DNA of 64,000 nt from Lebetimonas natsushimae (GTDB lineage: Bacteria; Campylobacterota; Campylobacteria; Campylobacterales; Nautiliaceae). This document shows positions 1,405 to 56,290 of the stretch, one piece after another; position 1 is the first letter of the stretch, and every line of letters begins with the position of its first letter. The notes beneath the pieces were generated by a model. That model had not been told where the DNA came from and did no database searches. It saw only the letters and a list, made by a program, of their open reading frames with translations. A program made the translations under genes and the position numbers. Where the stretch lies: assembly GCF_002335445.1 (NCBI RefSeq), contig NZ_BDME01000001.1, positions 62,001-126,000 on the forward strand, read 5' to 3'.

Positions 1405-2222
1405 TTAAGTGCTTTTATAAGTTTTTTGATTGTAATTCTCGGATCTTCATTTAGCGGGCTTATTACATATGTTTTAGCACCTATTTTTTGTGCAATAATT
1501 TCAGCATATTTTTTAGGAAATTCCGGTGAAATGATTACAGTTTTTATGCTGTTTTCCTTTGCAATTTTTAAAATTTTATTCAAGTAAGAAAAGCTCGGTT
1601 CTTTTCCCTCTTTTTCGAGAGCTATTTCTTTTATGTGAAAATCCTCTGCAAAATGATAAAATGCGGGATGGAATGTAATAAAGGATTTTTGTTTTATGTT
1701 TAAAAATCCCTCTTTTTCAAGACTGGCCAGTGAATCAATAAATTTTACATAATTATTTAGATAAAATTTTTTATTTTCAGGGTCTGCTTTAATGAGTTCA
1801 TCCAATACCACTTTTGCTTGAAGTTGCAATTTAGCGGGACTTAGCCAGATATGAGGGTTAGAATTTTTGTTTAAGTATTTTCCAAAATATACCACTTTAA
1901 TGTCGGGATTAACTTCTTTTATTTTTGAGAGGTATTTTTTATCAAATGGTACGCCTATTGTAAAATAAATATCGCTTTTTTTAATGTTTTTAAGTTCTTT
2001 GAATCCTATTGAATAGGTTGCAGGAGAACTTCCCGGAGGTACCATTATATAAACATTAGCCTTTTTACCCGCTATTGCTTTTACAACCCCTTTTTGGGGT
2101 AACACGGTTACTGAAATATTCAGTGCAAAACTTAAAACAGGCAATAACAAAAATAACAAAAATTTTTCACTTTTAATTTTTAACTTTCCACTTTTTTTTA
2201 CACTCATTGCATATTCCTTCAA
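1401..2222 (-). CDS. znuA: Metal ABC transporter substrate-binding protein, ZnuA-like
   Basis: This 273-aa protein of the cluster A-I metal-binding family has a hydrophobic signal at about residues 20-34 (LLFLLLPVLSFA) for export to the periplasm. Candidate metal ligands are His124 in NPHIW and His185/190 in FHPAFYHF. The usual first ligand, a His in the family motif PHxYxP, is Ala68 here (SPATY), and there is no His-rich loop. The start overlaps the zur gene by 50 bp; a later ATG at residue 6 is possible. The n-region of the signal peptide (SGKLKIKSEK) is encoded by one copy of the heptamer repeat family. Zinc is the likeliest substrate, but manganese or another metal cannot be excluded. Confidence 0.85.
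   Translation of the reverse strand: MKEYAMSVKKSGKLKIKSEKFLLFLLLPVLSFALNISVTVLPQKGVVKAIAGKKANVYIMVPPGSSPATYSIGFKELKNIKKSDIYFTIGVPFDKKYLSKIKEVNPDIKVVYFGKYLNKNSNPHIWLSPAKLQLQAKVVLDELIKADPENKKFYLNNYVKFIDSLASLEKEGFLNIKQKSFITFHPAFYHFAEDFHIKEIALEKEGKEPSFSYLNKILKIAKENSIKTVIISPEFPKKYAEIIAQKIGAKTYVISPLNEDPRITIKKLIKALK
2163..2203 (-). repeat. Heptamer repeat copy R1 (znuA start / zur end)
   Basis: On the minus strand the sequence parses into 7-mers GTGTAAA, GTGGAAA, GTTAAAA, ATTAAAA, GTGAAAA with one irregular A-rich spacer. It lies across the overlap between the end of zur and the start of znuA and encodes the basic n-region of the ZnuA signal peptide. Confidence 0.6.
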
Positions 2223-6137: not shown

Positions 6138-6554
6138 ATGCCGGATATGGGCTTTAGTGAAATTTTATTTGTAGCGGTTATTGCCATTATTGTTTTAGGA
6201 CCTGAAAAACTTCCCGATGCCATGAGGGATTTGGGAAGGCTTTTTATAAAAATAAAAAAGATGTGGAGAGATGCAACCGCCGATATCAGAAGAGAACTGG
6301 AACTTGAAGAAATGAAAGCAGAAATGGAACAGTATAAAAAGCAGCTTCAGGAACTTCAAAACAAGGTAACTGGTGAGGCGAATGAAATTAAAAGTTCACT
6401 GACTTCCCTTGACGAATTGACAGCTGTCGGTAATACAAGGGATTTTTCAAATATGTTAAATAATAATGAGAAAGTAGATAATGTAAAAAGTAAAATGGAA
6501 AATGAAAATAAAAATAATGAAAAGTTAGAAAAAAGTGAAAATAAAGAAAAGTAA
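6138..6554 (+). CDS. tatB: Sec-independent protein translocase subunit TatB
   Basis: This 138-aa protein begins with one N-terminal membrane helix (about residues 5-21) followed by GPEKLP and an amphipathic helix (DAMRDLGRLFIKIKK), the TatA/TatB fold. The long charged coiled-coil tail of about 90 residues favours TatB over TatA. It works with TatC to recognise twin-arginine substrates. No tatC follows; the next gene is a pseudouridine synthase. The last 30 or so codons are A-rich and Lys/Asn/Glu-only, resembling decayed heptamer repeat sequence, so the C-terminus is probably unconstrained. Confidence 0.88.
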   Translation: MPDMGFSEILFVAVIAIIVLGPEKLPDAMRDLGRLFIKIKKMWRDATADIRRELELEEMKAEMEQYKKQLQELQNKVTGEANEIKSSLTSLDELTAVGNTRDFSNMLNNNEKVDNVKSKMENENKNNEKLEKSENKEK

Positions 6555-6584
6555 TTATCCATTTTTCATTATCCATTTTCCATT
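6553..6584 (-). repeat. Heptamer repeat copy R3 (tatB-rluD intergenic)
   Basis: On the minus strand four units read ATGGAAA, ATGGATA, ATGAAAA, ATGGATA. The copy fills nearly the whole gap between tatB and the pseudouridine synthase and is oriented against the flanking genes. Confidence 0.7.
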
Positions 6585-6593
6585 AGGGATATT

Positions 6594-13803: not shown

Positions 13804-14408
13804 AAGAAATATTTAAGATTTTAAGTGAAGAGCACAATGCGATTAATTTGTTTTGGAATAATTTTCATAAAATAGATACAGGGGTTTACAGAAGTGCACA
13901 GATTCTTCCCTGGAGACTTAAAAAACTTATTAGAAAACATAACATTAAAACAATTATTAATTTAAGAGGGAGTAATAATTATCTTTATAAAAAAGAAAAA
14001 GAGATATGCGAAAAACTTGGGGTTGAATATATTGAACTTCCCATTTCTTCAAGGACATTGCCTAAAATAGAAGAAATGCAAAAATTAAAAAATATTTTAT
14101 TTGATAAAAATAAAAGACCAATTCTTTTTCATTGTAAAGCAGGGGCGGACAGAAGTGGATTTGTGGCCACGTTTTACAGGATTATTAAAGGTGAAAATCC
14201 AAAAGAAGCCATAAAAAAAGAATTGAAACTTAAATACGGATTCATTGCTTTAAGCAAAGCCGGAAGAATAAAAGAATTTTTTTCAAAGTATGATGGAAAA
14301 AAAGATTTTTTAGAGTGGGCAAAAGAAAACAGGGATAAAATCCAGGAAAATTTCAGTGAAAATCCTTTTATTGATTTTGTGTATGAAAAGATTTTAAGGA
14401 GGGAATAG
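13800..14408 (+). CDS. Dual-specificity/tyrosine phosphatase-like protein
   Basis: This 202-aa protein has the Cx5R phosphatase loop HCKAGADRSG at 111-120, with Cys112 as nucleophile and Arg118 binding phosphate. It also has the early block GVYRSAQILP (28-37) and TIINLRG (51-57) seen in the DSP and Tyr-phosphatase-2 families. No signal peptide or membrane span is seen, so it is cytoplasmic. The substrate may be a phosphoprotein, phosphoinositide-like lipid or phosphosugar; the sequence does not decide. It overlaps comM by 4 bp and abuts nnr through a shared base. Confidence 0.75.
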   Translation: MKEIFKILSEEHNAINLFWNNFHKIDTGVYRSAQILPWRLKKLIRKHNIKTIINLRGSNNYLYKKEKEICEKLGVEYIELPISSRTLPKIEEMQKLKNILFDKNKRPILFHCKAGADRSGFVATFYRIIKGENPKEAIKKELKLKYGFIALSKAGRIKEFFSKYDGKKDFLEWAKENRDKIQENFSENPFIDFVYEKILRRE

Positions 14409-15799
14409 TGAGAAGAGTTTTTAGGGATGTTTATGCTTTGGATAAAAAATGTTATGAAAAATATAATTTAACGGAAGATATTTTGATGGAACATGCCGCT
14501 TATGAAATGGCGCTTGAAATATATAAAAGAATTGAAAAAGGCAGTAGGGTGACAATTGTGGCCGGTCCCGGAAATAACGGGGCTGACGGGATTACACTTG
14601 CAAGAATTCTTTTAGGGGATTATAAAGTAAATCTGTTTTTACCGCTTAATGCAAAATCGCAGATGGCAAAGCTGCAGCTTGAAAGGTTTTTAAGGATTGG
14701 AGGAAAAGTTAGCAAAAAATTAAAAGAAGCGGATGCAGTGGTAGATGCCATATTTGGAAGCGGGCTTAAAAGGGATTTGAGTGATGAAATAGTGAAAACA
14801 ATTGAAAAAATGAATGAAATGAACGGTTTTAAACTTGCCTGTGATATTCCAACAGGAATTGATGAAAAAGGGAATATAAGACCTGTGGCATTTAAAGCCG
14901 ATTTAACCGTTACAATGGGTGCTGAAAAACTAAGTCTCTATTCAGATTCGGCAAAAGATTATGTGGGGGAGATTAAGCTGGCAAATTTAGGTATATCTTT
15001 TTCAAATTATGTTGAAAAAAGCGATTTTTTTATTTTGGAAAAAGGGGATTTAAAACTGCCTGTAAGAGCTAAACAAAATTCACATAAACGCTCTTACGGA
15101 CATTTGGGGATTTTATGCGGAGAAAAAAAAGGTGCCGCAGTTTTGGCAAGTCAGGCGGCTTTTAATTTTGGATGCGGGCTTGTGAGTTTGGTTGAGAGTG
15201 AAAAATGTAAAGTGGAAAATTATCCGTATGAGATTATGAAAAGCGGTAGTGTTGAAGGATTCAGTGCGCTTGCGTTTGGAATGGGAATGGGAGAGTGTTT
15301 TGATGATAAATTAGCTGAAATTGCAAAACTTGATATTCCGATGGTAATTGATGCCGATATGTTTTATAAAAAAGAGATTTTAAAATTTTTAGAAAAAAAA
15401 GTGGTTTTAACTCCTCATCCAAAAGAATTTTCATCTTTACTTAAAATTAGCGGGGTAGGTGAATATTCCACAAAAGAAATTCAGGAAAACAGGTTTGATT
15501 TGGCTTTGGAATTTTCTAAAAAATATCCACAAGTAGTTTTGCTTCTTAAAGGTGCAAATAAAATAATAGCCCATAATAAAAAATTTTATATTGACCCATA
15601 CGGCAGTGTGGCACTTGCAAAAGGCGGAAGCGGGGATGTGCTTGCCGGTATGATAGGTTCTTTGCTGGCGCAGGGAGAAGATTTATTATCTGCTACAATT
15701 AATGCAAGTCTGGCCCATTCAATTGCTGGAAATTATGAACCGAATTATGCCTTAACCCCTACTAAACTTATAAAAAGAGTTGAAAAGATTAGGATTTAG
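14408..15799 (+). CDS. nnr: Bifunctional NAD(P)H-hydrate epimerase / ADP-dependent dehydratase
   Basis: This 463-aa fusion has an N-terminal YjeF epimerase domain (about 1-200, with GPGNNGADG at 53-61) and a C-terminal ribokinase-like dehydratase domain (about 215-463, with VLTPHPKEF and GGSGDVLAG starting near 406). Together they repair hydrated NADH and NADPH, a damage product favoured by heat. The start is GTG at the preceding stop. Residues ESEKCKVENYPYE, near 265, are encoded by a heptamer repeat copy (15198-15225), a low-constraint insertion in the second domain. The 3' end overlaps the convergent msbA-like gene by 11 bp. Confidence 0.9.
   Translation: MRRVFRDVYALDKKCYEKYNLTEDILMEHAAYEMALEIYKRIEKGSRVTIVAGPGNNGADGITLARILLGDYKVNLFLPLNAKSQMAKLQLERFLRIGGKVSKKLKEADAVVDAIFGSGLKRDLSDEIVKTIEKMNEMNGFKLACDIPTGIDEKGNIRPVAFKADLTVTMGAEKLSLYSDSAKDYVGEIKLANLGISFSNYVEKSDFFILEKGDLKLPVRAKQNSHKRSYGHLGILCGEKKGAAVLASQAAFNFGCGLVSLVESEKCKVENYPYEIMKSGSVEGFSALAFGMGMGECFDDKLAEIAKLDIPMVIDADMFYKKEILKFLEKKVVLTPHPKEFSSLLKISGVGEYSTKEIQENRFDLALEFSKKYPQVVLLLKGANKIIAHNKKFYIDPYGSVALAKGGSGDVLAGMIGSLLAQGEDLLSATINASLAHSIAGNYEPNYALTPTKLIKRVEKIRI
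15198..15225 (+). repeat. Heptamer repeat copy R4 (inside nnr)
   Basis: Four units read GTGAAAA, ATGTAAA, GTGGAAA, ATTATCC in frame within the nnr dehydratase domain and encode about ten residues (SEKCKVENYP). The repeat's ATG strand is the coding strand. Confidence 0.55.
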
Positions 15800-18451: not shown

Positions 18452-19298
18452 AGATTTCAGTTATTATGGGTATAAATTTATAGAAAAAATTATAACTTTT
18501 TTTCCAAAAGAATTTATGATAAATTTTTTAGGAAATTTAGGTTATATACTCGATAATAAAAGAAAAAATGTGATTTGTGTGAATTTAAATTTAGCTTTTC
18601 CTGAGAAAAGTAAAGAAGAAAAAAGAAAAATAATAAAAAAAATTTATAAAAATTTTGCCAGAAATTTAATAGAATTTATTGAAAATAAAAAAATAAGCAA
18701 AGAAAAACTTTTGGAAAAAATTGAATTTGTGGGATTTGAAAATATCCCAAAACAGGCTATTTATGTTACCGCCCATTTTGGAAACTGGGAAATTACATCT
18801 TTGAGTTTTGGTGCAAAGTTTGGAAAAATTGATATTGTATACAGAAAACTGGATAATCCTAAATTAAATGAAGAAGTTGTTAAAAGCAGAAGCAGATTTA
18901 ATGTGGGGGTGATTGAAAAAAAAGGCGCCATGAAAGAACTTGTTAAATCTATTAAAAAAGGTCATAATATTGGTCTTTTGGTAGATCAAAACACGGCTGA
19001 AAACGAGGGGATTGAAACTGTTTTTTTTAATAGAAAAGTTTTGCAGTCCCCAAGTGCCGCAATTTTATCCAAAAAATTTAATCTGCCAATAGTTATGAGT
19101 TTTGCTATTCCTAAGGGAAATAAATGGCAGGTAATTGTAAAAGATATTTTTTATACGGATGATATTCAAAAATCAGTTGATAGACAGTCAAAAGTTTTTG
19201 AAGAGATGATAAAAGAATATCCTGATGAATATTATTGGTTTCATAAAAAATTTAAACATTTTTATGAAGAAGAATATGATAAAAAGTGTAAAGTTTAA
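18441..19298 (+). CDS. waaM: Lipid A biosynthesis lauroyl/myristoyl acyltransferase (LpxL/WaaM family)
   Basis: This protein of about 285 aa has the LpxL/LpxM active-site block HFGNWE at about residue 112 and the later block VDQNTAENEG, where proteobacterial homologues bind the acyl donor. It adds a secondary acyl chain to lipid A on the cytoplasmic leaflet. The extreme N-terminus is amphipathic with one hydrophobic stretch. ATG 18441 is preferred over TTG 18438. It overlaps waaC by 11 bp and ends one base before the next gene's ATG, inside heptamer repeat R5. Confidence 0.88.
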   Translation: MNFKDFSYYGYKFIEKIITFFPKEFMINFLGNLGYILDNKRKNVICVNLNLAFPEKSKEEKRKIIKKIYKNFARNLIEFIENKKISKEKLLEKIEFVGFENIPKQAIYVTAHFGNWEITSLSFGAKFGKIDIVYRKLDNPKLNEEVVKSRSRFNVGVIEKKGAMKELVKSIKKGHNIGLLVDQNTAENEGIETVFFNRKVLQSPSAAILSKKFNLPIVMSFAIPKGNKWQVIVKDIFYTDDIQKSVDRQSKVFEEMIKEYPDEYYWFHKKFKHFYEEEYDKKCKV

Positions 19299-19320
19299 AA
19301 TGAAAAGTGAAAAATTAAGT
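19286..19320 (+). repeat. Heptamer repeat copy R5 (waaM stop / glycosyltransferase start)
   Basis: Five units read GTGTAAA, GTTTAAA, ATGAAAA, GTGAAAA, ATTAAGT. The TAA of waaM lies in the second unit, and the third unit's ATG (19300) is the start of the next gene. Confidence 0.7.
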
Positions 19321-29190: not shown

Positions 29191-29644
29191 AGTAAATTTT
29201 GGAAAAATTTCTTTGAAAGAAATGTTGTTTGATGATAAATTTAAACTGCTTCTTTTTTACAGATTAGCAAATTATTATATTTATAAACCACAAAAAAATC
29301 CTATTGAAAGATTCTTGCAAAGTATATTTAATAAATTTTTTAAATATTATTCAAAAAAATTTTGTATGGATTTTAAGGCAAAAGTAAAAATAGGATATGG
29401 ATTATATATTCCTCACCCAATAGGAATAGTCATTAACGGTAAATCTGTTATTGGTAATAACTGTACAATAATGCAGCAAGTTACTTTGGGTAATGATTTG
29501 ATAGAAATTAATAAAGCGCCTATTGTCGGGGATAATGTAAAAATTGGTGCTAATGCGGTAGTAACTAAAGATATACCTGATAATTGTGTGGTAGCGGGAG
29601 TGCCTGCTAAAATTATTAGGAGATTAGATGAAGTTATTAATTGA
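29165..29644 (+). CDS. Serine-acetyltransferase-like hexapeptide O-acetyltransferase
   Basis: This 159-aa left-handed beta-helix protein has hexapeptide repeats from about residue 78 (GYGLYIPHPIGIVINGKSVI) and the catalytic-region HPIGIVI. The C-terminal VVAGVPAKIIRR is typical of acetyltransferases of this class. The N-terminal helical region (about 1-60) is shorter than in CysE. Placed between WaaG-like and WaaF genes, it most likely acetylates an LOS sugar with acetyl-CoA. Serine acetylation for cysteine synthesis is the alternative but does not fit the context. Confidence 0.75.
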   Translation: MKFLKKDIEVNFGKISLKEMLFDDKFKLLLFYRLANYYIYKPQKNPIERFLQSIFNKFFKYYSKKFCMDFKAKVKIGYGLYIPHPIGIVINGKSVIGNNCTIMQQVTLGNDLIEINKAPIVGDNVKIGANAVVTKDIPDNCVVAGVPAKIIRRLDEVIN

Positions 29645-30512
29645 ACCTCCAACCTGGCTTGGCGATGCGGTTATGGCAAGCGGGGCGATAAACAGACTTC
29701 TTGAATATTTTAAACCGGATAAATCTGTTCTTTTTGGTAGTTTTGTATCAACTGAGCTTTTTAAAAGTAAATTTGATGAAGTTATAGTAGATGACAGAAA
29801 TCACAGATTCAGTCAGTTTTTTAAAATCCCAAGGGTTGATTTGTTTATAAGTTTCAGGGGAAGTTTATATTCCAAACTAATAGGTTTAAAATCAAGAAGG
29901 TATTTTACATTTGATAACAAATTTTCAGGACATATGGTAGAAAAATATTCAAAATATGTTAACAATATTATAAAAGAAAACAGAATTTATCCTCCAAAAC
30001 TTGATTTTAAACCTTTTGAATTTGTAAAGCCAACAATCGGTATTAATCCGGGGGCAACTTACGGCAGTGCAAAGAGGTGGTATCCTGAAAAGTTTGCCGA
30101 AGTTGGAAATTATTTTAAAGATTACAGACTAATTATTTTTGGAGGGCCAGGGGAAGAGGAAATAGCAAAAGATATTGAAAAAAATCTTTCTCATTCTGAT
30201 GTTTTGAATTTATGTGGGAGATTAAGTATCAAGCAGCTTTGCGAATATATAGGTGGACTTAAATTATTTATTACAAACGATTCTGGTCCTATGCATATAG
30301 CGGCAGCTTACAATGTACCGATTGTGGCAATATTTGGGCCGACTGATTACAAAGAGACAAGCCCCTGGAGTAAAAATTATAAAATAGTCACCAAAAATTT
30401 GGAATGTGCTCCGTGTAAAAAAAGGGAATGTCCTTTAAAAACGCATGAATGTATGAAAAGCATTGAAGCTGATGAGGTTATAAAAGCGGCGGAGGAACTG
30501 TTAAATGGATAA
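29628..30512 (+). CDS. waaF: Lipopolysaccharide heptosyltransferase II
   Basis: This 294-aa family 9 enzyme begins [20 protein letters not shown], matching the WaaF N-terminal motif (xWLGDxVM). It has the donor block [19 protein letters not shown] and the C-terminal [10 protein letters not shown] Cys block. It adds the second heptose of the inner core. It directly precedes gmhB, hldD, hldE and gmhA, which make its ADP-heptose donor. Its TAA stop lies within heptamer repeat R6, and the next gene's ATG comes before it. Confidence 0.9.
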
Positions 30513-30539
30513 TGGAAAATGGATAATGGAAAATGAAAA
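30505..30539 (+). repeat. Heptamer repeat copy R6 (waaF stop / gmhB start)
   Basis: Five contiguous units read ATGGATA, ATGGAAA, ATGGATA, ATGGAAA, ATGAAAA. The waaF stop codon (30510-30512) and the gmhB ATG (30505) are both inside it. It is the cleanest copy in the window and shows the 7-bp period directly. Confidence 0.85.
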
Positions 30540-31017
30540 GATAAAAGCTGCATTTTTGGACAGGGACGGAGTAATAAACATAGATAAAAATTATGTTCAT
30601 AAAATAGAGGATTTTGAATTTAAAGACGGGATATTCGATTTATTGAAACTACTTCAAGATAAAGGATTTGTTTTATTTGTAGTAACAAATCAGTCGGGAA
30701 TAGGCAGGGGATATTACACTCTTGAAGATTTTAAAAAATTAACGGATTATATGTTAAATGAATTAAAAAAAAGAGGAATTAAAATAAAAGAGGTTGCTTT
30801 TTGTCCCCATCATCCGGGTGTTAATTGTGAATGCAGAAAACCAAAACCGGGGATGATACTTAATCTGGCTAAAAAATATAATATTGATTTAAAACATTCC
30901 ATTTTAATAGGAGATAAGCAAAGCGATATAGAAGCCGGAAAGAATGCAGGAGTTGGTAAAACATATTTAGTGGAAGATTCTTTATTTGATATAATTGAAA
31001 AAATCAAAAAGGAATGA
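30505..31017 (+). CDS. gmhB: D-glycero-beta-D-manno-heptose-1,7-bisphosphate 7-phosphatase
   Basis: This 170-aa HAD-family phosphatase has the nucleophile motif [11 protein letters not shown] (about residues 15-25), VTNQSG (motif II), a zinc-binding [14 protein letters not shown] block and GDKQSDIEA (motif III/IV). It removes the 7-phosphate in ADP-heptose synthesis. The first 12 residues ([12 protein letters not shown]) are encoded by the heptamer repeat and are absent from the usual family start. A strong GGAGGA lies 8 bp before ATG 30505, which supports that start, although ATG 30526 is possible. It overlaps waaF by 8 bp. Confidence 0.92.
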
Positions 31018-31018
31018 A

Positions 31019-32011
31019 ATGAAATATGCGGATATTGATTTTAATAATAAAACTATCCTCGTTACCGGTGGGGCAGGATTTATAGGAAGTAATCTTGCTT
31101 TTTATTTTCAGGAAAATTATCCGGACGCAAAAGTTATAATCTTTGATAAATTCAGAAATGAAGAGACTTTTTCAAACGGAAATTTAAAATCATTTGGCCA
31201 TTTTAAAAATTTAATAGGATTTAATGGGATAGTAATCAGCGGGGATATTACAAATAAGGAAGATTTGGAAAGACTTGAAGAGTATGATATCGATTATATT
31301 TTCCATGAAGCTGCAATTTCAGACACAACCGTTTTAGACCAGAAAATAATGATAGATACAAATGTAAATGCTTTTAAAGATTTGCTTGATTTGGCGATTA
31401 AAAAAGATGCGAGTATGATTTATGCAAGTTCTGCTGCTACATATGGAAATTCTAAAATATTTAAAGTGGGATATGAACATCCTAACAATGTATACGGGTT
31501 TAGTAAACTAATGATGGATAATCTGGCAAAAGAGTATTATGATAAATTAAAAGTTGTAGGGCTCAGGTATTTTAACGTATACGGTCCAAGGGAGTATTTT
31601 AAAAATAAAACGGCTTCAATGGTACTTCAGTTTGGACTTCAACTATTAAAGGGCGAGAGTGCAAAACTGTTTGAGGGAAGCGATAAAATAAAAAGGGATT
31701 TCATTTATGTTGAAGATGTGATTCAGGCAAATATAAAAGCCTGTGAGGCTAAAAAAAACGGCGTTTATAATGTAGGAACCGGAATTGCCAGAAGTTTTCA
31801 GGATATTGTGTATATATTAAAAAAAGAGCTTAACATAGAGAGAGTTGATGTTTATATTCCAAATCCTTATGCAAAACAGTATCAGTATTTTACCCAGGCC
31901 GATATTGAAGATACAAAAAAATATTTGGGGTATAATCCAAGATTCAGTTTAGAAGAAGGGATAAAAGCATATATTCCTGAAATAATCAGAATTTATGAAG
32001 AAGTAAAATGA
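31019..32011 (+). CDS. hldD: ADP-L-glycero-D-manno-heptose 6-epimerase
   Basis: This 330-aa extended SDR has the NAD(P)-binding motif TGGAGFIGSN near residue 14, the catalytic pair YGFSK (Tyr-x3-Lys) near 160 and Ser in YASSAATYGNS. It converts ADP-D-glycero- to ADP-L-glycero-manno-heptose, the donor for WaaC and WaaF. I chose ATG 31019 because AAAAAGGA lies 5-6 bp upstream; the frame open from 30995 would add eight residues overlapping gmhB. It overlaps hldE by 4 bp. Confidence 0.93.
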   Translation: MKYADIDFNNKTILVTGGAGFIGSNLAFYFQENYPDAKVIIFDKFRNEETFSNGNLKSFGHFKNLIGFNGIVISGDITNKEDLERLEEYDIDYIFHEAAISDTTVLDQKIMIDTNVNAFKDLLDLAIKKDASMIYASSAATYGNSKIFKVGYEHPNNVYGFSKLMMDNLAKEYYDKLKVVGLRYFNVYGPREYFKNKTASMVLQFGLQLLKGESAKLFEGSDKIKRDFIYVEDVIQANIKACEAKKNGVYNVGTGIARSFQDIVYILKKELNIERVDVYIPNPYAKQYQYFTQADIEDTKKYLGYNPRFSLEEGIKAYIPEIIRIYEEVK

Positions 32012-33396
32012 TAGCAGTTATCGGTGATTTTATGATAGACCATTATTTATGGGGGAAAAGCAGCAGAATTTCCCCTGAAGCACCGGTGCCTGTGGTTGAA
32101 GTGGAAAAAGAAGAAGACAGGCTCGGAGGTGCCGGTAATGTTGTAAATAATTTAATAACTCTCGGAGCGGATGTACTGGTTTCAAGTGTTATTGGCAGAA
32201 ATTCAAGAAGAATGTTAAAACTGGTAGAAGAAAAAAACATTGATACAAACGGGGTTTTTATAGACAAATCCCGTGAAACAATTATAAAAAGCAGAGTTAT
32301 AGCTTCTCACCAGCAGGTAATCAGGTATGACAGGGAAACCATTAATCCAATCAGTGAAGAATATGAAAATAAAATAATTGAGTATTTAAATAAGTATATA
32401 CAAAATATAGAAATAATTCTGCTTAGCGACTACGAAAAAGGTGTTTTGACAAAAAGTTTAACACAAAAAATAATTAAACTTGCAAACAGGTTTAATAAAA
32501 AGCTTATAATTGACCCTAAAAAAGATTTTTCAAAATATGTAAATGCATGGATGTTAAAACCAAATAAAAAAGAACTTGAAACCGCTTCCGGCATGCAAAT
32601 AAAGAATAAAGACGATTTGATAAAAGCCGGATGGAAAGTCAAAAAAGACCTTAATTTAGATTATCTTTTAGTGACTCTCAGTGAAGATGGAATGGCCCTT
32701 TTTGCTGATGAATATATAGAAGTTCCGACCCTTGCAAGAGAAGTATATGATGTAACAGGGGCCGGAGATACAGTTTTGGCATCTCTTGGGTTTTATTTGA
32801 GTAAAAGTGATGATTTGGTAAATGCAATGCATTTCGCAAATGCCGCGGCGGCTGTAGTAGTTGGAAAACTTGGAAGTGCAACCGTTACACTTGAAGAAAT
32901 TAAGGAAACTCAGAGAAGGATTGATAACAGCGTAGATTATAAAATAGTGGATTTTAATACAATTGAAAAAATAGCAAATGAATTAAGAAGCGAAAATAAA
33001 AAGATAGTTTTTACAAACGGTTGTTTCGATATTTTGCATATAGGGCATGTGAAGTATCTGCAAAAAGCCAAAACACTTGGTGATAAACTAATAGTCGGTG
33101 TTAATTCCAATGAATCTGTAAAAAGATTAAAAGGGCCAAGTAGGCCTGTAAATGATGAATATGACAGAGCTTATCTTTTGGCAAGTTTGGAAGTTGTGGA
33201 TTATGTTGTAATTTTTGATGAAGATACTCCTTACGAATTAATAAAAAGAATTAAACCAGATATTTTGGTAAAAGGCGCCGATTATAAAAACAAAGAGGTT
33301 GTAGGAAGTGATATTGCTAAAGAAGTAAAATTAATTGATTTTGTCGAGGGAAAGAGTACCACTAATATTATTAAAAAAGTGAAAAATGAAAAGTGA
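32008..33396 (+). CDS. hldE: Bifunctional heptose 7-phosphate kinase / heptose 1-phosphate adenylyltransferase
   Basis: This 462-aa fusion has an N-terminal ribokinase-family domain (about 1-305; RLGGAGNVVNN near 33 and DVTGAGDTVLA near 245). A C-terminal cytidylyltransferase-like domain (about 325-462) has FTNGCFDILHIGHVKYL. It phosphorylates heptose 7-phosphate at C1 and adenylylates the product after GmhB action. Its TGA stop and last codons (VKNEK) are inside heptamer repeat R7. It sits in an unbroken gmhB-hldD-hldE-gmhA set. Confidence 0.95.
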   Translation: MIAVIGDFMIDHYLWGKSSRISPEAPVPVVEVEKEEDRLGGAGNVVNNLITLGADVLVSSVIGRNSRRMLKLVEEKNIDTNGVFIDKSRETIIKSRVIASHQQVIRYDRETINPISEEYENKIIEYLNKYIQNIEIILLSDYEKGVLTKSLTQKIIKLANRFNKKLIIDPKKDFSKYVNAWMLKPNKKELETASGMQIKNKDDLIKAGWKVKKDLNLDYLLVTLSEDGMALFADEYIEVPTLAREVYDVTGAGDTVLASLGFYLSKSDDLVNAMHFANAAAAVVVGKLGSATVTLEEIKETQRRIDNSVDYKIVDFNTIEKIANELRSENKKIVFTNGCFDILHIGHVKYLQKAKTLGDKLIVGVNSNESVKRLKGPSRPVNDEYDRAYLLASLEVVDYVVIFDEDTPYELIKRIKPDILVKGADYKNKEVVGSDIAKEVKLIDFVEGKSTTNIIKKVKNEK

Positions 33397-33431
33397 AAAA
33401 TTAATAGAAAATGTATAATGAAAAATTGAAA
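33379..33431 (+). repeat. Heptamer repeat copy R7 (hldE stop / gmhA upstream)
   Basis: Units read GTGAAAA, ATGAAAA, GTGAAAA, ATTAATA, a GAAA remnant, then ATGTATA, ATGAAAA, ATTGAAA. It supplies the hldE stop codon and fills the hldE-gmhA gap. An open ATG in it (33411) would extend gmhA but is not the favoured start. Confidence 0.75.
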
Positions 33432-43469: not shown

Positions 43470-43518
43470 ATATTATAAAACTTTTTCTTCTTTTTTTTCG
43501 TCTTTAAGTATAAAAATT

Positions 43519-43547
43519 ATACATTATCCATTGTCCATTTTCCATTA
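43519..43547 (-). repeat. Heptamer repeat copy R9 (upstream of the alpha operon promoter)
   Basis: On the minus strand units read ATGGAAA, ATGGACA, ATGGATA, ATGTATA. It ends 7 bp before the -10 element of the ribosomal operon and is oriented against it, so it occupies the -35 region. Confidence 0.7.
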
Positions 43548-46923: not shown

Positions 46924-47263
46924 AATAAAAGCTTTGCTTAAAGAAGCAATGGAAAAAAAAGATTATAAAAAAATAATTAAAATATTGAATTCTTTGGTTA
47001 AAGAAGATAAATTTAATCCAGATACATTAAAAGGTATTTTATTTAAAGATGTAAAAGATATTATCAAAACAAAAGAAGATTTAGAAAATATCCTGCTTTC
47101 CACTAAAGTTATTTTTGAGACAAAAGAAGAAGTTCTTGAATTTTTTGAACTTTTATTGAAATACGGATTTAGGGAAAATGCAATTGATTATTTTGAAGAA
47201 CTGATGTTTAATATAAATGATTTGGAACTTATTGAAGGGTTTAACTCATTACTAAAACAATGA
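46898..47263 (+). CDS. Conserved helical protein of unknown function between nfuA and murE
   Basis: I do not recognise a named domain. From ATG 46898 the product is about 121 aa, highly charged and almost wholly helical (EIKALLKEAMEKKDYKK, then repeated helix pairs suggestive of a TPR- or HEAT-like bundle). It has no Cys, signal or membrane segment. The frame is open from ATG 46868, but that would give a longer overlap with the NFU gene. It overlaps murE by 4 bp. A similarly placed short gene occurs in Campylobacter, suggesting a conserved role. Confidence 0.6.
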   Translation: MSYSNIHSEIKALLKEAMEKKDYKKIIKILNSLVKEDKFNPDTLKGILFKDVKDIIKTKEDLENILLSTKVIFETKEEVLEFFELLLKYGFRENAIDYFEELMFNINDLELIEGFNSLLKQ

Positions 47264-48465
47264 ATTATGAAGAGTTGATTAACAAAAATGCAATTACAGA
47301 TAATACAAAAGAACTAATTAATAATAAAATTTTTTTAAAAACTGCACAAAATGAAAAATATTCTCAAAATATTTCTTCTTTTTTGACTCCGAAAGATTTA
47401 TTAAACAATATTAAAACAAAATTTATAGGAATTACCGGTACAAACGGTAAAACTACAACAGCTTTTGTTTTGGGCTTTTTGTTAAATCAGGCAGGTTTCA
47501 ATGTAGCTGTTCAGGGGACTGAGGGGTTTTTTGTAAACGGAGAAAAAAGAGAAGACAAAACTCTTACAACTCCTTCTATTTTTACTACAATAAAAAGAGT
47601 ATATAAATATAAACCCGATTTTTTTATTATGGAAGTGAGCTCTCACGCAATTGCACAAAACAGGATTGAAGGGATTGATTTTACTGCTAAAATTTTAACT
47701 TCATTTTCCCAGGACCACCTTGATTATCATAAATCAATGAAAGAGTATAAAAAAATTAAAGAGGGTTTTTTTCAGGATGAAACACTTAAGATTGTAAATG
47801 GACAATGGAAAATGGATAATGGAAGATTTAGTATTATAACTGTGAGCGGTTATGATTTTAAAATTAATTCAAAAAATTTATATGTCTTAGAAAAATCGAT
47901 AGTTAATGATATCCCGATGGCCGGTGAATTTAATAAAATGAATTTTTCTTTGGCCCTTAAAACAGCAGAAAATTTAACTTCATTATCCCTTAATAATTTT
48001 TTATTTGATAATTTTAAGGGTGTCCCAGGTAGAATGGAAATAGTATCTATTAATCCTTTGATAATTATAGATTTTGCCCATACTCCGGATGGAATGCAAA
48101 AAGTTATAAGTTCCCTTAAAGGAAAAAAACTGGTTGTATTTGGTGCCGGGGGAGACAGAGACAAGGGAAAAAGAGTAAAAATGGGAGAAGTTGCCGATAA
48201 ACTGGCAGATTACATAATTTTAACAAATGACAATCCCCGTTGTGAAAAGCCTGAAGATATAGTAAGTGATATTAAAAGTGGTATAAAAAAAACTCCTTTT
48301 GAAATCATACTTGATAGAAAAGAAGCTATAAAAAGGGCGGTAGAACTTTCCAAAAATTTTGATGCGACACTGATTTTGGGAAAAGGGGATGAAAAATATA
48401 TAGAACAATGCAGAGAAAAAATTCCTTTTTCTGACAGGGAAACAGTTAAAAACTTTTTAATTTAA
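47260..48465 (+). CDS. murE: UDP-MurNAc-tripeptide ligase MurE (meso-diaminopimelate type)
   Basis: This 401-aa Mur ligase has the ATP motif GITGTNGKTTTAF (about residues 58-70), MEVSSHAIAQNRI and the substrate motif DNPRCEKP near 325. The DNPR form signals meso-diaminopimelate as the added residue. It is shorter than most MurE proteins (around 480 aa), mainly at the N-terminus. Residues 180-189 (NGQWKMDNGR) are encoded by a heptamer repeat copy inserted in frame in the central domain. It acts in the cytosol in peptidoglycan precursor synthesis. Confidence 0.92.
   Translation: MNYEELINKNAITDNTKELINNKIFLKTAQNEKYSQNISSFLTPKDLLNNIKTKFIGITGTNGKTTTAFVLGFLLNQAGFNVAVQGTEGFFVNGEKREDKTLTTPSIFTTIKRVYKYKPDFFIMEVSSHAIAQNRIEGIDFTAKILTSFSQDHLDYHKSMKEYKKIKEGFFQDETLKIVNGQWKMDNGRFSIITVSGYDFKINSKNLYVLEKSIVNDIPMAGEFNKMNFSLALKTAENLTSLSLNNFLFDNFKGVPGRMEIVSINPLIIIDFAHTPDGMQKVISSLKGKKLVVFGAGGDRDKGKRVKMGEVADKLADYIILTNDNPRCEKPEDIVSDIKSGIKKTPFEIILDRKEAIKRAVELSKNFDATLILGKGDEKYIEQCREKIPFSDRETVKNFLI
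47798..47825 (+). repeat. Heptamer repeat copy R10 (inside murE)
   Basis: Four units read ATGGACA, ATGGAAA, ATGGATA, ATGGAAG. Translation in the murE frame gives NGQWKMDNGR. It is nearly identical to the intergenic copy R9 read on the other strand. Confidence 0.8.
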
Positions 48466-54206: not shown

Positions 54207-56248
<2,042 letters not shown>

Positions 56249-56249
<1 letters not shown>

Positions 56250-56290
56250 TTGATAATGGAAAATGTATAATGGATAATTAAAAGTGAAGA
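56249..56290 (+). repeat. Heptamer repeat copy R11 (purA stop / fliJ-like start)
   Basis: Six contiguous units read ATTGATA, ATGGAAA, ATGTATA, ATGGATA, ATTAAAA, GTGAAGA. The first base is shared with the purA stop, and the last unit's GTG (56284) is the next gene's start codon. The whole purA-fliJ-like gap is repeat. Confidence 0.8.

Follow-up and report, generated by a model that had tools for sequence, protein, structure and literature searches.

Translated heptanucleotide arrays recur at the same sites of MurE and other enzymes within Nautiliaceae

Introduction

How does a dispersed tandem repeat come to lie, translated, in the middle of an essential gene? The question is raised by murE of Lebetimonas natsushimae, a hydrothermal-vent bacterium whose genome (1.64 Mb in 8 contigs; denoted G000, with its relatives numbered from G001) includes the window analysed here, a stretch of 64,000 nucleotides. 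A first-pass annotation of the window had proposed that a heptamer repeat is inserted in frame in murE and tolerated there as a surface loop, in the manner of Rickettsia palindromic elements.

Among the long simple repeats of many bacteria, those with a heptanucleotide unit are the most abundant, and polymerase-slippage ideas have been put forward for them (Mrazek 2007, as cited in PMC4679880 and PMC4692102). Repeats of the heptamer TAACTGA are found at gene starts and sometimes in open reading frames (ORFs) (PMC4679880), insertions of Rickettsia palindromic elements preserve the reading frame (Ogata 2000/2002, as summarised in PMC10969869), and Borg repeats form protein segments (PMC9879509).

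Results

A heptamer array is translated within murE

The host gene (47260-48465, forward strand) is identified as UDP-N-acetylmuramyl-tripeptide synthetase by TIGR01085 (337.9 bits; cut-off 257.3), and the Foldseek matches of its product in the PDB are MurE structures. Within it lies array R10 (47796-47824, forward strand), a 29-bp direct repeat of the units AATGGAC, AATGGAA, AATGGAT and AATGGAA rather than a palindromic element of approximately 100-150 bp; it was detected with a period of 7 by Tandem Repeats Finder and by a genome-wide pattern search. Translation of the gene confirms the earlier observation of a repeat inside murE: codons 180-189 (47797-47826, forward strand) are encoded by R10 and read NGQWKMDNGR in frame. 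The reported likeness to an intergenic array on the other strand, R9 (43516-43547, reverse strand; AATGGAN type, found by Tandem Repeats Finder and a pattern search), also holds, as the reverse complement of R9 is 85 per cent identical to the murE copy over 33 nt. Taken by itself, R10 is only weakly more periodic than synonymous recodings that preserve its amino acids and codon usage (P = 0.09). The case for it is made by the genome-wide repeat family and by the comparison between genomes.

The repeat family across the genome and the window

The pattern ATGGA-N-AATGGA-N-AATGGA-N-AATGGA, with up to three mismatches, has 125 + 64 = 189 matches in G000, and the reversed pattern used as a control has 0 + 0. 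A shorter AATGGAN pattern matches 22 times within the window, against 0.96 matches expected. For AAAAGTG such a control is uninformative, since reversal of this unit yields only a rotation of it. Across 400 kb of G000, tandem periods are enriched at 7 (23 arrays) and 14 (7 arrays) and at no other value (0-2 arrays for other periods), and Markov shuffles give 0; a tandem unit of exactly 7 nt beyond chance, the mark of bacterial heptanucleotide LSSR, is thus present in this genome. The unit families found were AATGGAN, AATTGAN, AAAAGTG, GTAGTGA, AAGTTCC, and others, and a census of the general form AAKKKAN counted 49 arrays in the 400 kb. Further strict period-7 families are GTAGTGA/GTTGTGA, TAGTCGA, AAGTTCC/AAGTTAC, TTGATGG, and AAATGTT (stretches L247, L248, L250, and L252 of G001; L246 and L259). 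A run of approximately 5 kb of N in the G001 stretch L245:7497-12504 also scores as periodic and is to be excluded from censuses. Two genomes from other families of the order stand out: the AAAAGTG arrays of G023 are perfect, and AATGGAN matches number 50 in G044, whereas most non-Nautiliaceae genomes have none. No source of the heptamer unit sequences was found in this analysis.

The window holds a second array that is read in frame, R4 (15191-15226, forward strand; VESEKCKVENYP), in nnr (14408-15799; TIGR00196/TIGR00197). R4 had been offered as a second case of a tolerated in-frame repeat; sequence comparison shows that the in-frame array is real but that its unit belongs to a sister family, AAAAGTG/AAAGTGG, and not to AATGGAN. 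Further arrays lie at or across the ends of ORFs: a 5.3-unit array (30503-30539, forward strand) at the junction of ORFs 29628-30512 and 30505-31017, where it overlaps the stop of the first and the start of the second; one at the 3' end of ORF 6138-6554 (6471-6509, forward strand), with an inverted partner in the opposite orientation (6554-6585, reverse strand); one at the gene junction after ORF 55008-56249 (56245-56281, forward strand); an array of mixed AAAAGTG and AATGNAN units that straddles the end of ORF 32008-33396 (33375-33430, forward strand); an AAAAGTG/AAAAGTT-type array overlapping an ORF end (2161-2195, reverse strand); and an AAAAGTG-type array overlapping an ORF junction (19283-19315, forward strand). 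At 30498-30540, (TAATGGA)n creates overlapping stop/start TAATG motifs in several frames, which could possibly serve translational coupling. Inverted pairs of arrays 10-60 bp apart are frequent, several of them at convergent-gene junctions with each array sense to its own gene (window 6471-6585; G000:C1 15133-15223, 176032-176098, 185495-185567, and 395947-396024; stretch L257 2500-2593), and could make RNA hairpins.

Arrays inside genes are read in open frames

By crude ORF calls over 400 kb of G000, which define the division into genic and intergenic arrays throughout, approximately half of the period-7 arrays lie in or overlap ORFs. Thirteen ORF-internal arrays are in sense orientation versus one in the opposite orientation, and at co-directional gene junctions the numbers are 25 and 4 (both classes pooled, P = 2.5e-7). 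The bias at junctions lies beyond what protein-level selection explains. At least 13 ORFs in the 400 kb carry open-frame arrays. The hosts include RnhB, ThiE, QueH, MurE, an STT3-type oligosaccharyl transferase, a DegT aminotransferase, GalE, a FAD oxidoreductase, Dxr, RecJ, an MqnD-like protein, TrxB, and RimM, where all names but those of MurE and Nnr were read by us from the ORF sequences; in MurE, Dxr, GalE, RnhB, TrxB, and QueH, the in-frame arrays lie inside functional genes.

Since 7 is not a multiple of 3, all frames of (AATGGAN)n encode one seven-residue cycle, N-G-(K/Q/E)-W-(K/R)-M-(D/E), which is a strand / Asn-Gly turn / strand pattern. In AATGGAN, only a T at the variable position before AA closes the frame. 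A variable T giving TAA occurs in 0 of 16 cases in internal arrays versus 42 of 147 in non-internal ones (P = 0.013), the pattern expected if the internal arrays are translated.

Different heptamer families occupy one site of MurE

We searched for MurE in 60 related genomes and aligned a subset of the sequences. The MurE relatives that are 62-69 per cent identical come from Nautiliaceae and mostly from metagenome-assembled genomes. At the position of residues 180-189, AATGGAN arrays are found in G000, G002, G006, and G015, AATTGAG-containing arrays in G005, G017, and G018, and AAAAGTG arrays in G001, G003, G007, G008, and G011. The array-poor genome G010 still has a weak AAAAGTG-like remnant there. 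The extra residues are absent, as had been anticipated, from the array-poor Nautiliaceae G009, G012, G014, and G016 and from all outgroup families aligned, in which the site is array-free and short; conservation of these residues in MurE of repeat-free genomes was not found in the alignment. Some peptides are common to several genomes (ELRIENSNFSL in G005 and G018; EKCKVKSGG in G003, G007, G008, and G011). In a MurE tree built without the array columns, supported branches force at least five changes for AATKGAN and at least three for AAAAGTG. Alignment and tree therefore contradict a single insertion into MurE: the site has been refilled repeatedly with different heptamer families across Nautiliaceae.

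The AlphaFold2 model of MurE (mean pLDDT 93.6) places the array residues in a predicted beta-hairpin, with strands at 182-186 and 189-195 joined by an NG turn (DSSP), so that the array would lengthen a hairpin spanning residues 182-195. The region is also variable in an alignment of MurE structures from the PDB, and in the model for G018 the longer array forms a loose loop (block pLDDT 59). The expected surface position fits this model: judging from the predicted hairpin and the length variation, the MurE array is probably exposed to solvent.

A second heptamer site of MurE was recognized by alignment at residues ~240-252 (47977-48015, forward strand), where the array of G000 is short and degenerate. 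Period-7 clusters are present at this site in 12 Nautiliaceae MurE genes, in which the outgroup segment TNEELQKICDVVENF is overwritten by reverse arrays of four unit families that read NSPFSILNSQLKNF, NSSLSTFNFSLF, NYSLLTTHYSLF, or WNLDLGTWNAF, mostly with little or no change in length. The description of the event as a pure insertion accordingly fails here and in TrxB, where native codons were overwritten without net change in length.

Recurrently filled sites in other genes

Dxr, TrxB, GalE, RnhB, QueH, and ThiE repeat the pattern of MurE, in that one site carries differing heptamer families. In a count over six genes (MurE, Dxr, TrxB, GalE, RnhB, and QueH), period-7 arrays occupy the G000 sites in 45 of 81 Nautiliaceae orthologues (39 of 75 without G000) versus 1 of 43 outgroup genes; the remaining 63 kb of these genes contain 14 period-7 clusters, 12 of which are the second MurE site. 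G000 and G001, which belong to one genus, are both occupied at 7/7 sites (MurE, Dxr, TrxB, GalE, RnhB, QueH, and ThiE; the Dxr array of G001 scores 14 of 21, just below the threshold used), and their unit families differ at six of the seven. RnhB of G003 has a further family, AAGTTCC; Dxr of G003 and G007 carries reverse-strand arrays; and the matching site of ThiE, as read in fetched stretches, has AAGTTCC units in G001, AATGGAN in G008, and a possible AAAAGTG-like array in G002. In two DegT-type aminotransferases, distant paralogues of 29 per cent identity, G001 (stretch L245 1-1210) has TYRWKMENGKWKIN at the place of YYKLKMDNGEWKIK in G000 (G000:C1:133671-134768). In G001, dxr (G001:C1:858435-859513) is broken in two by the loss of one base from a run of T directly after the heptamer array; this is either an assembly error or a genuine frameshift in an essential gene.

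On the gene trees, unit type changes at least 5 times in GalE, 6 times in Dxr, and 8 times in RnhB, and the minimum numbers of changes between occupied and empty states are 3, 4, and 5, respectively. An empty GalE state, DISEIG(N/S/D)GI, is common to G006, G008, G009, and G014, which represent two genera, and G005 and G011, congeners of the empty G008, are filled with different arrays. Because the empty state is near-identical across genera, the GalE arrays are repeated gains. GalE settles part of the choice between gain and switch: at filled sites, switching of families, or loss of arrays followed by regain, must also occur. The single-gene trees are weakly resolved, and some shared states could reflect recombination or descent; for the same reason, allele exchange between co-occurring lineages is a possible source of such states.

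Discussion

A process that would write arrays of period 7

We favor, with a probability of roughly 0.7, a mutational process specific to period 7 that writes arrays often, with selection retaining in-frame ones in a few tolerant loops. On this view, the MurE segment is translated from one copy of a degenerate, dispersed tandem repeat with a unit of seven nucleotides. The putative process would be active in array-rich Nautiliaceae and would write short arrays of several families both in genes and between them, in some cases adding codons and in others replacing them. Where the net array length keeps the frame, a hairpin would be lengthened or replaced; selection would purge nearly all other events, survivors would accumulate in a small, recurring set of permissive loops and enzymes, and arrays in these loops would be swapped for other unit families over time. 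Independent events would share sites because few loops tolerate arrays. Frequent writing combined with strong purifying selection is the most economical reading of these sequence comparisons. Counting against it are the weak resolution of the single-gene trees, the weak DNA periodicity of AATGGAN copies once their amino acids are taken into account, the orientation bias at gene junctions, the remnant at the MurE site of the array-poor G010, and the failure to find a source of the unit sequences.

It is possible, though we lean against it, that the family ancestor already carried arrays and that unit type was later switched by array conversion or allele exchange among vent bacteria, with little or no new insertion. 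Such a history would suit the joint occupancy of all seven sites in G000 and G001 as well as some unit types, and even peptides (the two shared in MurE), common to several genera. It is opposed by the GalE empty state in four genomes of two genera, with filled congeners beside G008, by the short, outgroup-like loops that array-poor genomes mostly have at the sites, and by the at least 3-5 occupancy changes required per gene.

We are more doubtful that local replication slippage expanded a short motif already present, for instance a AATGGAAAA that encodes Asn-Gly-Lys in a turn, with nothing copied in from other places. The length of DNA that a polymerase holds has been proposed as the basis of period 7 (Mrazek 2007, as cited in PMC4679880 and PMC4692102), and some MurE arrays in the alignment do begin on a native NGK codon run. 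However, seed 6-mers are not in excess in empty alleles (8/1343 versus 112/25264 positions), on which ground the local-seed hypothesis was rejected, the same few unit families appear at unrelated sites, and replacement that preserves length is not expected of simple slippage.

Selection on the protein alone, such as for hairpin peptides that confer thermostability, would make the heptamer appearance a by-product of amino-acid periodicity and AT-rich codons, and we consider it very improbable. AATGGAN copies are barely more periodic than their synonymous recodings, and the peptide WKMENGKW resembles designed beta-hairpins such as trpzip2, which we count in its favor; against it, other families at the same sites encode different peptides, none of 2000 recodings is as periodic as the array in MurE of G001, RnhB of G008, or Dxr of G003 (0/2000 in each), the same units are common between genes, and reverse-strand arrays exist too. 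Least credible is a contingency repeat that switches the gene by frameshift: tandem repeats elsewhere act as such phase-variation switches and the unit length is no multiple of 3, but we rejected this explanation because the arrays are degenerate with few perfect units, have housekeeping genes as hosts, and keep the frame in every orthologue that is intact, the sole broken copy (G001 dxr) being off by a single T and not by 7 bases.

If period-7 writing followed by selection does operate, its agent might be a dedicated or polymerase-driven 'heptamer writer' of array-rich Nautiliaceae that synthesizes arrays of several heptamer families into the chromosome, overwrites coding loops in place, and possibly needs Pol IV (DinB), a speculation that we think improbable in this specific form. 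DinB/Pol IV (PF00817; in G000 at G000:C2:361482-362039, compared with 20 relatives) is encoded by 11 of 14 array-rich versus 1 of 7 array-poor Nautiliaceae (Fisher P ~0.016, with shared ancestry not removed) and, among genomes at least 90 per cent complete, by 8 of 8 versus 1 of 4 (Fisher P ~0.018, likewise with shared ancestry not removed). The two also track each other inside two genera. Many DinB-bearing genomes outside Nautiliaceae lack arrays of this kind, and some arrays occur in G032, which has no DinB; the co-occurrence is a weak, post hoc lead only. Reverse transcriptase was rejected as the writer, as RVT_1, which G000, G002, and G006 have, is missing from other array-rich genomes. 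If the conjecture is true, a heptamer writer would act as saturation mutagenesis in nature, leaving a mark at each permissive loop in the proteome.

Relation to known repeats

As the cited sources describe them, bacterial heptanucleotide LSSR (Mrazek 2007, as cited; GGGNATC in Xanthomonas/Nostoc, PMC4692102) share with the Nautiliaceae arrays the period of 7, the dispersal mostly near gene ends, the inverted pairs, and a strong turnover of length and sequence. They are reported there to be under-represented in coding regions, whereas many Nautiliaceae arrays are in frame inside housekeeping genes, where, unlike in LSSR, several unit families swap at one site. The TAACTGA heptamers of Beggiatoaceae likewise form arrays at gene junctions and in some ORFs, one near the end of MurG, but TAACTGA read forward gives stops in all frames and its ORF copies are mainly at protein ends (PMC4679880); the Nautiliaceae arrays are internal, forward, and recurrent, their unit differs, and AATGGAN forward frames are open in 13 ORFs. 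The analogy to Rickettsia palindromic elements holds for in-frame copies of dispersed DNA that are tolerated in functional genes and breaks down for the unit, which is a direct heptamer with no palindrome: in the summary cited, the Rickettsia elements are palindromic, ~150 bp long, and fall into defined families (PMC10969869), whereas the arrays are ~30 bp of degenerate direct heptamers and can replace native codons. Borg tandem repeats are also fast-evolving and independently arisen, lie within and between genes, and form new protein segments, but their coding repeats are perfect, mostly disordered, and of lengths divisible by three (PMC9879509), whereas here the unit is 7 nt and the arrays are degenerate and hairpin-forming.

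Our literature search, which is not proof of absence, found no description of these repeats in Nautiliaceae, nor one of family-wide refilling or overwriting of the same essential-enzyme loops by different heptamer families. Heptamer repeats and in-frame selfish insertions were already known; recurrent rewriting of the same site appears to be new in the literature searched.

Implications

The arrays show selfish or mutational tandem DNA colonizing the same positions of essential enzymes again and again; the position is kept and the unit family changes. Two questions become testable in this way: the preference of bacterial tandem repeats for a period of exactly 7, and the frequency with which conserved proteins acquire new peptide segments. 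The contrast of array-rich and array-poor genomes within one family may offer a route to the responsible pathway, and the repeats may serve as a natural test and map of the loops that tolerate insertion or replacement, to be compared with protein-engineering data.
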